64,000 nt of DNA from Halobaculum marinum (GTDB taxonomy: Archaea; Halobacteriota; Halobacteria; Halobacteriales; Haloferacaceae), in NCBI RefSeq assembly GCF_029338555.1, contig NZ_CP119989.1:1488001-1552000 (forward strand), written 5' to 3'. This document shows positions 37,295 through 47,618 of the stretch, piece by piece. The notes below the pieces were generated by a model. That model was not told the DNA's origin. It was given only the letters and a program-made list of their open reading frames with translations, and did no database searches. The translations under genes and the position numbers were made by a program. Position 1 is the first letter of the stretch; each line of letters opens with the position of its first letter.

Positions 37295-37450
37295 CGAGAC
37301 GACAACGGGCCGCAACCGTGCCACAGGGCGCTCGCTGCTGTCGATAAGCTTGTCTTACCCTCGGGGGAATACGGTTGCGACCCGAGTACCAGCCGACGCA
37401 AGGGTGGCGTCGCTCGTCGGTCGAGGCGCTTCGGCCGGTGACGGAGGAAG

Positions 37451-37539
37451 ATGCGCGGGACCGGATTCGAACCGCGGTCGGACGTGCTCGGCTCGCTTCC
37501 GCTCGCCTCCGCGCGACCTCCCTGGTTCGAACCCGTTCC
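37451..37539 (-). repeat. tRNA-tail-flanked element, copy A (next to tRNA-Leu)
   Basis: Read in the tRNA's direction it follows tRNA-Leu by about 43 bp. It consists of an inverted T-arm copy (37524-37539), a 50-bp core (37474-37523), and a 23-bp exact copy of the tRNA-Leu 3' end (37451-37473, identical to 37581-37603). The inverted copy pairs with 37458-37473 at 14 of 16 positions. The core is nearly identical to that of copy B at 47406-47454, including GGTCGGACGTGCTCGGCTCG on plus. Possible natures: a small mobile element with tRNA-specific ends, an integration scar, or a structured transcript. Confidence 0.8.
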
Positions 37540-37581
37540 GTGTCGATTCTCACGGCTCTCCCGTTTGGTCGAGCCGGAGAA

Positions 37582-37666
37582 TGCGCGGGACCGGATTCGA
37601 ACCGGCGGACCCCTATGGGACAGCGTCCTAAGCGCTGCGCCGTTGGCCTGGCTTGGCTACCCGCGC
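37582..37666 (-). tRNA. tRNA-Leu (anticodon UAG)
   Basis: 85-nt class II tRNA without encoded CCA. Acceptor stem GCGCGGG/CCCGCGC, U8-A9, D-arm GCC...GGC with AGCCAGG, anticodon stem CAGCG/CGCTG with loop CTTAGGA (anticodon TAG), an extra arm, and T-arm ending GGTTCGAATCC. Discriminator A. It reads CTA codons (and possibly other CTN). A TATA-like TACTTA on the minus strand at about 37692-37697 lies about 27-31 bp upstream of its 5' end. Confidence 0.93.
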
Positions 37667-47382: not shown

Positions 47383-47468
47383 ACGGGCTTGGAGGGAGTT
47401 GAACCACGGTCGGACGTGCTCGGCTCGCTTCGCTCGCCTGTGCGTGACCTCCCTGCTTCAACTCCCTC
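47383..47468 (-). repeat. tRNA-tail-flanked element, copy B (next to tRNA-Lys)
   Basis: Read in the tRNA's direction it follows tRNA-Lys by about 76 bp. It has the inverted copy of the T-arm (47457-47468, exact 12-bp complement of 47392-47403), a 49-bp core (47406-47454), and a 23-bp exact copy of the tRNA-Lys 3' end (47383-47405, identical to 47544-47566). The core shares about 45 of 50 positions with copy A although the two tRNA tails differ. The stems therefore follow the neighbouring tRNA while the core is common. Confidence 0.82.
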
Positions 47469-47544
47469 GGACGACCGTTAGTCGGTGCGGTTCCTCGACC
47501 CGTGCGCTCCGCTCCCGGATCTCCTCACAGTGCGCCTCGAAGAA

Positions 47545-47618
47545 CGGGCTTGGAGGGAGTTGAACCCCCGACCGACGGATTAAGAGTCCGTCGCTCTCCC
47601 TGACTGAGCTACAAGCCC
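47545..47618 (-). tRNA. tRNA-Lys (anticodon CUU)
   Basis: 74-nt tRNA without encoded CCA. Acceptor stem GGGCTTG/CAAGCCC, D-arm GCTC...GAGC, anticodon stem ACGGA/TCCGT with loop CTCTTAA (anticodon CTT), T-arm GGGGGTTCAACTCCC. Discriminator base reads G. It decodes AAG. TATA-like TAAAAT on plus (ATTTTA on minus) at 47646-47651 lies 28-33 bp upstream. Confidence 0.94.

Follow-up and report, generated by a model that had tools for sequence, protein, structure and literature searches.

tRNA-matched hairpin units behind haloarchaeal tRNA genes point to a tiny, undescribed mobile DNA

Our data show that tRNA genes across the class Halobacteria can be followed by short hairpin units without genes, whose ends are matched to the tRNA in front of them. 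Their repeated, precise gain and loss at one spot points to an undescribed mobile DNA of very small size that fits itself to the individual tRNA gene. About 70% of the sampled haloarchaeal genomes contain the core pattern, and units can follow half of a genome's tRNA genes. We tentatively postulate, with a confidence somewhat short of even, that the units are mobile cassettes without genes that recombine at the T-loop of tRNAs via a folded hairpin site. If mobile, they would rank among the smallest strictly site-selective DNA cassettes, and their tRNA-following arms would show an element being retargeted by base pairing. The units would also be relevant to annotation (partial tRNA copies) and to att-site mapping of haloarchaeal viruses, and they may provide a lead to a new recombinase; the genetics of Haloferax, Halobacterium, and Haloarcula would make direct testing possible if these genera carry units.

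Unit anatomy and tRNA-matched arms

The window, that is, the whole stretch of 64,000 nt of Halobaculum marinum DNA subjected to our analysis, contains two tRNA genes, tRNA-Leu(TAG) and tRNA-Lys(CTT), both identified on the minus strand by ARAGORN and Rfam. Each is followed by a unit, referred to as copies A and B, with the following features:

37582-37666, minus strand: tRNA-Leu(TAG), host of copy A (ARAGORN; Rfam)
37542-37581, minus strand: hairpin 1 of copy A, with a T-rich start immediately after the tRNA (DNA fold z of -3.7)
37526-37541, minus strand: inverted T-arm copy of copy A, the 5' arm of hairpin 2
37473-37525, minus strand: core of copy A, CAGGGAG...CGACCGCG, with a variable terminal hairpin
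37452-37473, minus strand: tRNA-Leu 3'-end copy of copy A, spanning the first T-loop base through the discriminator, the 3' arm of hairpin 2
47545-47618, minus strand: tRNA-Lys(CTT), host of copy B (ARAGORN; Rfam)
47473-47544, minus strand: hairpin 1 region of copy B (also compared across species of the genus)
47457-47472, minus strand: inverted T-arm copy of copy B
47405-47456, minus strand: core of copy B, CAGGGAG...CGACCGTG
47384-47404, minus strand: tRNA-Lys 3'-end copy of copy B

Read along the minus strand, copy A passes from the tRNA through TTCTCCGGCTCGACC...GAGAATCGAC (hairpin 1) and ACGGAACGGGTTCGAA (inverted T-arm) into the core, ccagggaggtcgcgcggaggcgagcggaagcgagccgagcacgtccgaccgcg, and finishes with GTTCGAATCCGGTCCCGCGCA, the tRNA 3' end. 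The elements of copy B follow one another in the same way, with arms made of tRNA-Lys sequence. The original prediction had placed behind tRNA-Leu a unit with an inverted T-arm at 37524-37539 and ends pairing at 14 of 16 positions, a perfect repeat of the tRNA's 3' end (here at 37452-37473), and a core nearly identical to that of copy B. All three were borne out, the last by an alignment in which the cores differ by few substitutions and one indel. Its description of arm, core, and end copy stood, and what it had missed was hairpin 1 and many further core types. A repeat finder additionally paired 37446-37474 of copy A with 37576-37604 at 93%.

The sense strands of hairpin 2 in copies A and B gave RNA-fold z values of about -4.1 each. 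In the DNA fold, copy B reached z -3.3, and copy A (z -0.17) folds with DNA parameters no better than shuffled sequence. Within the window, the gathering score of Rfam models was reached by the two tRNAs alone, and the units had no Rfam match. We take copies A and B to be more than chance because such units recur across the class Halobacteria.

Further copies near other tRNAs, whose presence had been set beforehand as a test, were found behind tRNAs of 31 anticodons, the extracted set comprising 188 units in 133 occupied tRNA contexts; the accompanying test of the copy ends against the neighboring tRNA revealed that they match their own tRNA. Among 123 occupied tRNAs, the 3'-end copy and the tRNA showed 93-100% identity over the stretch from the G of GTTC through the discriminator base, a copied segment of 21-22 nt. 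Outside this border, identity between copy and tRNA was 92% at the preceding G, 24% at the next base upstream, and 57% at the first base downstream of the tRNA. Given this sharp drop on both sides, all tRNAs share one border, with the copy running from the start of the T-loop to the tRNA 3' end. Since the copies inspected stop at the genomic discriminator base and lack CCA, a retrocopy of the mature tRNA, which the original prediction had offered as one explanation (retro-type insertion), is unsupported and was rejected.

The inverted arms follow their own tRNA and not others. Their complementarity to the own tRNA exceeded 0.9 at most of the first eight positions and was about 0.56 at position 12, and a comparison of own versus other tRNAs gave 0.96 versus 0.48 at position 4, 0.74 versus 0.43 at position 10, and 0.58 versus 0.27 at position 11. 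Across the 188 units, the arms of hairpin 2 measure 8-12 nt and enclose, by inspection, an internal loop of 3-5 nt, and the arm and end sequence follows the tRNA T-loop (GTTCRANTCC), varying with the tRNA. For this reason, a resemblance of GTTGAAGC to a CRISPR handle was dropped. In the 3'-end copies of some units, such as those at L124, L127, L036, and L144, the T-loop is changed to GTTCACGATCC or GTTCACAATCC, so that one or two extra bases are present at an identical position in different genomes.

Distribution, turnover, and arrays

We searched for the core pattern CAGGGAG - 6 to 36 bases - CGACCGYGGTTC, with the reversed pattern as the control, and found it in 283 of 391 haloarchaeal genomes (reversed control, 0). 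In a phylum sample, 33 of 53 haloarchaeal genomes contained the pattern versus 1 of 242 genomes from other classes (p about 1e-28, a value that, like all p-values given here, is optimistic because the counts are drawn from related sequences and partly query-biased loci), and the single match outside the class looks like chance. The conserved core with its fixed flanks, CAGGGAG and CGACCGYGG, is class-wide and was detected almost exclusively in the class. In named genomes, a 19-base piece of the core matched beside tRNA genes in Halobonum, Halobaculum, and two MAGs and at a tRNA-like end in Halolamina; its bacterial matches were attributed to chance. Similar cores were found at Leu, Lys, Arg, His, and further tRNAs. 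There are also other core types (among them CCCTGCAAGTCGC...CTTGCTCCG, GTAGAC...GGCGTG, and CCCAGAGGAC...GTCCTCGCG), and every core type has one layout, consisting of arm, short internal loop, stem, and loop.

At 29 of 30 sampled haloarchaeal loci, a tRNA gene (Thr, Met, Arg, Ile, Val, Leu, Lys, His, or Gln) is located directly upstream on the same strand, and the remaining locus has a tRNA-like remnant in this place. Units were always downstream and on the tRNA strand at the inspected loci, and a genome-wide view revealed no comparable copy upstream of tRNAs except neighboring tRNA genes. Together with its 3'-end copy, a unit mostly spans 90-165 nt; the lengths of the units range from 42 to 246 nt. 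Unit-free tRNAs are mostly followed by a T-rich stretch and then ordinary sequence. In the genome of H. marinum, the source of the window, 7 of 45 tRNA genes carry a unit (Gly-CCC, Lys-TTT, Lys-CTT, Ser-GGA, Arg-TCT, Ser-CGA, and Leu-TAG). In the genome designated G064, units stand behind ~23 of 46 tRNA genes, some of them in rows of two to four; at one locus of this genome (L183), tRNA-Gly(CCC) genes lie in tandem ~143 nt apart with identical spacers.

Two consecutive units in Halolamina rubra (L030) have no recognizable tRNA. We rejected the reading of this locus as a non-tRNA site, since the ends of the first unit resemble the 3' end of tRNA-Thr (GTTC...ATCCCTCC.CCGGCT); judging from these ends, the locus probably represents a tRNA site that has decayed or been displaced, and a unit may therefore outlast the loss of its tRNA or be displaced. 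Viral contigs were likewise rejected as carriers, their 12 matches having no tRNA-matched arms in the flanks shown and being judged chance, as were phage matches, which were mycobacterial and inside hydrolase genes.

Across the genus, tRNA-Leu(TAG) and tRNA-Lys(CTT) are followed by one unit, two units, other cores, or none. When empty and occupied species are compared, the empty flank, starting at the base right behind the tRNA, aligns with the sequence behind the last copy; empty sites differ from their occupied relatives by exactly the unit. The cleanest pair concerns tRNA-Leu(CAA), where H. marinum is empty (L204), with the flank GCCGGGGTC... directly behind the tRNA, and L155, from another family, has a 94-nt unit exactly between the tRNA and the conserved flank. 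Such precise empty sites can alternatively originate from homologous deletion between the 21-22-bp repeats. The original prediction had considered a mobile element using tRNA 3' ends, and this part of its interpretation, which was partly supported overall, is supported by the precise empty/occupied pairs and by the recurrence of one core at different tRNAs. The flank behind tRNA-Leu(CAA), GATGC.GAAG...CTTCCCTCGCA, is kept between families (L204, L155, and L214) and is possibly a processing or terminator structure of its own.

The position of a copy within an array is also informative. In 36 arrays, fidelity to the tRNA was higher in the first copy than in the last in 18 cases and lower in 4 (p = 0.004, with the same optimism), so that the copy nearest the tRNA is the freshest, in line with an entry of new units at the tRNA. 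At most loci, hairpin 1 bears no relation to the flank downstream. In three loci (Leu-CAA, L214; Asp, L218; Arg-GCG, L229), it reproduces the host flank as far as the inverted arm, which suggests that units can form from local sequence and the shared core. At tRNA-Lys within the genus, the sequence of hairpin 1 changes and its hairpin form stays.

Structural signals, proposed mechanism, and rival explanations

Wobble pairs outnumbered A-C mismatches by 81:11 in the tRNA stems at the unit loci, as opposed to ratios of 16:24 in hairpin 1, 9:36 in the core, and 25:60 in the units together (Fisher p at most 3e-8 versus tRNA, again optimistic). Selection on a transcribed helix should give a picture like that of the tRNAs, and the units show the opposite; an RNA structure under selection, with G-U not enriched, is thus unsupported and was rejected, and with it the functional transcribed structure suggested at the outset. 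Among double mismatches, GA/GA on the tRNA-sense strand predominates, with 94 cases, and TC/TC does not belong to the common types. The GA-hairpin motif was in the sense orientation in 74 units and antisense in 3, and comparison loci gave 6 matches in 138.5 kb. In single-stranded DNA, both tandem G-A pairs and GCGAAGC loops have very high stability. Strand-specific tandem G-A without G-U excess therefore favors folded single-stranded DNA rather than RNA, with the caveats that the sequences compared are related and that the DNA fold of copy A is weak. As a counterpoint, a slightly better tolerance of G-T than of A-C is expected in single-stranded DNA, and the unit helices showed no such bias.

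The mechanism that we infer involves enzyme-driven mobility on a single-stranded DNA substrate, with the genesis of cassettes by local copying. A non-coding, non-autonomous cassette would insert site-specifically at the first base of the tRNA T-loop and, by carrying the segment from T-loop to 3' end, would leave the tRNA intact and displace the old 3' end downstream. Hairpin 2 (inverted T-arm, mismatched loop, core stem, and T-arm) would be the recombination site; the tRNA-sense strand would fold into a short duplex of T-loop and T-stem sequence, then the internal loop, then the variable terminal stem. An enzyme supplied in trans may act on this folded single strand, comparable to integron integrase on attC or guided TnpA on IS200/605 ends. 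A new tRNA-specific cassette could arise when the shared core, flanked by universal T-loop sequence, is joined to a copy of the local tRNA 3' end and flank. Since the arms vary with the tRNA, they speak for recognition by base pairing. It is possible, albeit less than probable, that the units represent an integron-like system unrelated to known integrases, in which tRNA T-loops are docking sites and arms rewritten for each tRNA make the system self-retargeting.

Arms that vary with the tRNA would fit pairing-based recognition in transposition of the IS200/605 type, which we consider unlikely. Hairpins 1 and 2 would then be the left and right ends and the inverted T-arm a long guide for a Y1 (HUH) transposase, with insertion after GGTT of the T-loop, and the units would be tRNA-targeted relatives of the palindrome-associated elements (PATEs) of Haloquadratum. 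The order of guide, hairpin, and cleavage site is that of IS608 ends, whose target is chosen by guide pairing (PMC5934647), and PATEs are described as small, non-coding elements with near-terminal palindromes and without terminal inverted repeats or target duplication (PMC3119063). However, the IS608 guide has 4 nt versus 8-12 here, none was seen beside hairpin 1, and PATEs are not reported at tRNA genes in the available part of their description (PMC3119063). Moreover, IS200-type TnpA (PF01797) was present in 31 of 38 high-copy genomes (six or more units) and in 27 of 41 zero-copy genomes, a difference that is not significant (Fisher p = 0.22, computed with 30/38 in place of 31/38). With no PF01797 match in 7 of the 38 high-copy genomes and no significant difference between the groups, TnpA probably neither explains the presence of units nor is required, and a Y1 transposase was rejected as the driver. 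Host replication errors, in which extra-stable GA mini-hairpins and the T-loop palindrome would lead to fold-back template switching with no dedicated enzyme, appear quite improbable. The three loci in which hairpin 1 is a native-flank copy ending inside the inverted arm are in line with such errors, as are the short T-stem-complementary stretch adjoining the flank copy in at least one of them, a hairpin 1 (L109) that looks like native flank plus its inverted copy, and the occurrence of tandem copies. Yet errors should show no fixed relation to the tRNA 3' end, whereas the borders are identical at 123 tRNAs and a core with fixed flanks (CAGGGAG / CGACCGYGG) is class-wide and was detected almost only within the class.

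A host-beneficial RNA, that is, a transcribed trailer that regulates tRNA 3' processing or gives small RNAs, would account for the tRNA strand and downstream position at all inspected loci, the strong sense-strand RNA fold (z about -4.1), and a changing hairpin 1 that remains a hairpin at tRNA-Lys in the genus. It nevertheless has a slim chance in our estimate, as the helices show no G-U excess over A-C, contrary to the tRNAs of the same set, and occupancy at one tRNA turns over within the genus, with units at only 7 of 45 tRNAs in H. marinum. In addition, hairpin 1 is often T-rich at its start like an archaeal terminator, and hairpin 2 may consequently be little transcribed. Very unlikely, in our view, is an origin of the units as scars of tRNA-integrated viruses or plasmids, i.e., attL/attR remnants after deletion of the body. 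Full-size integrase elements do occur at tRNA-Leu(TAG) in several genomes, and T-loop crossover with 3'-end repeats is typical of tRNA-integrating elements (PMC4383910; PMC1762012), but the right repeat of two such elements (L138 and L139) begins in the anticodon arm and not in the T-loop, and the units lie outside and are independent of them. As the original prediction had argued against phage att scars from the common core, scars would not give a shared core or tRNA-matched inverted arms, here at 31 anticodons, nor would clustering at 90-165 nt be expected of them. Three integrase-bearing elements (L138, L139, and L140) are integrated in tRNA-Leu(TAG), with hairpin units beyond attR.

Relation to known systems and a plasmid tRNA array

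The gene-less cassette reading was compared with known mobile systems. In integron attC sites, the ends pair over 9-11 nt, with an unpaired central spacer, a variable terminal structure, and poor sequence conservation (PMC2727003). This fold of paired ends, unpaired spacer, and variable terminal stem was found across the 188 units, which thus share a short folded site with attC and also resemble integron cassettes in their polar tandem arrays and use of one strand (PMC2727003). Unlike integron cassettes, the units are archaeal and gene-less, target the T-loop, and have the tRNA-sense strand as the structured one; the attC R''/R' boxes (RYYYAAC / GTTRRRY) are absent from the unit ends, which track the T-loop of each tRNA rather than a fixed R box. 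With tRNA-integrating islands of the T-loop class, the units share the T-loop crossover, restoration of the tRNA by the element, and a displaced 3' fragment that marks the far end (PMC4383910), and both restoration and displacement were observed at the 123 tRNA borders and empty sites. They differ in being ~100 nt long, gene-less, and arranged in arrays, with an inverted T-arm and a core common to different tRNAs; at 42-246 nt, they are too short to encode a tyrosine integrase.

The guide in IS608 lies 5' of a hairpin and base-pairs with the cleavage/target site (PMC5934647). IS200/605 ends, REP elements, and PATEs resemble the units in being gene-less hairpins with guide/cleavage-site pairing and strand asymmetry (PMC5934647; PMC3119063). 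The units depart from IS200/605 elements and PATEs by a long tRNA-matched guide, a fixed tRNA target, a repeated segment of 21-22 nt, and no significant association with Y1 transposase; the repeated tRNA segment is compatible with being either carried or duplicated. Casposons and CRISPR repeat-spacer growth have insertion by tRNA 3' ends and target duplication in common with the units (PMC4046053), but the casposon target overlaps just the last 4-7 nt of the tRNA gene (PMC4046053), and casposons are large, with Cas1 and PolB and no inverted target copy. Neither a Cas1-family integrase nor PolB is present in units of 42-246 nt. The nearest haloarchaeal gene-less elements are PATEs and the small mobile repeats of Haloquadratum, which the available part of their description does not place at tRNAs with matched arms. 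Within the open-access literature, no published description of tRNA-matched hairpin cassettes was found, in agreement with the original statement that the element is undescribed. No known family has all of its defining features represented here, and we therefore rate the kind as new.

A related arrangement was found on a plasmid of Haloarcula halophila (NZ_CP119561.1), where an array of at least 21 tRNA genes (L283:2844-5979) is flanked by genes for a B-family DNA polymerase and TROVE (Ro60-like) and is missing from the PLSDB gene table. A TROVE/Y-RNA link was dropped, the adjacent tRNA array accounting for the match. In the tRNA-Cys of this array, hairpin 1 and the core stand directly in the T-loop, with the break at GGT^TC and without a duplicated 3' end, and the core is of a different, related type (86% identical over 44 nt). 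This tRNA-Cys marks the same insertion point as the units. Besides tRNA-Cys, at least one other tRNA in the plasmid array has a T-loop insertion.
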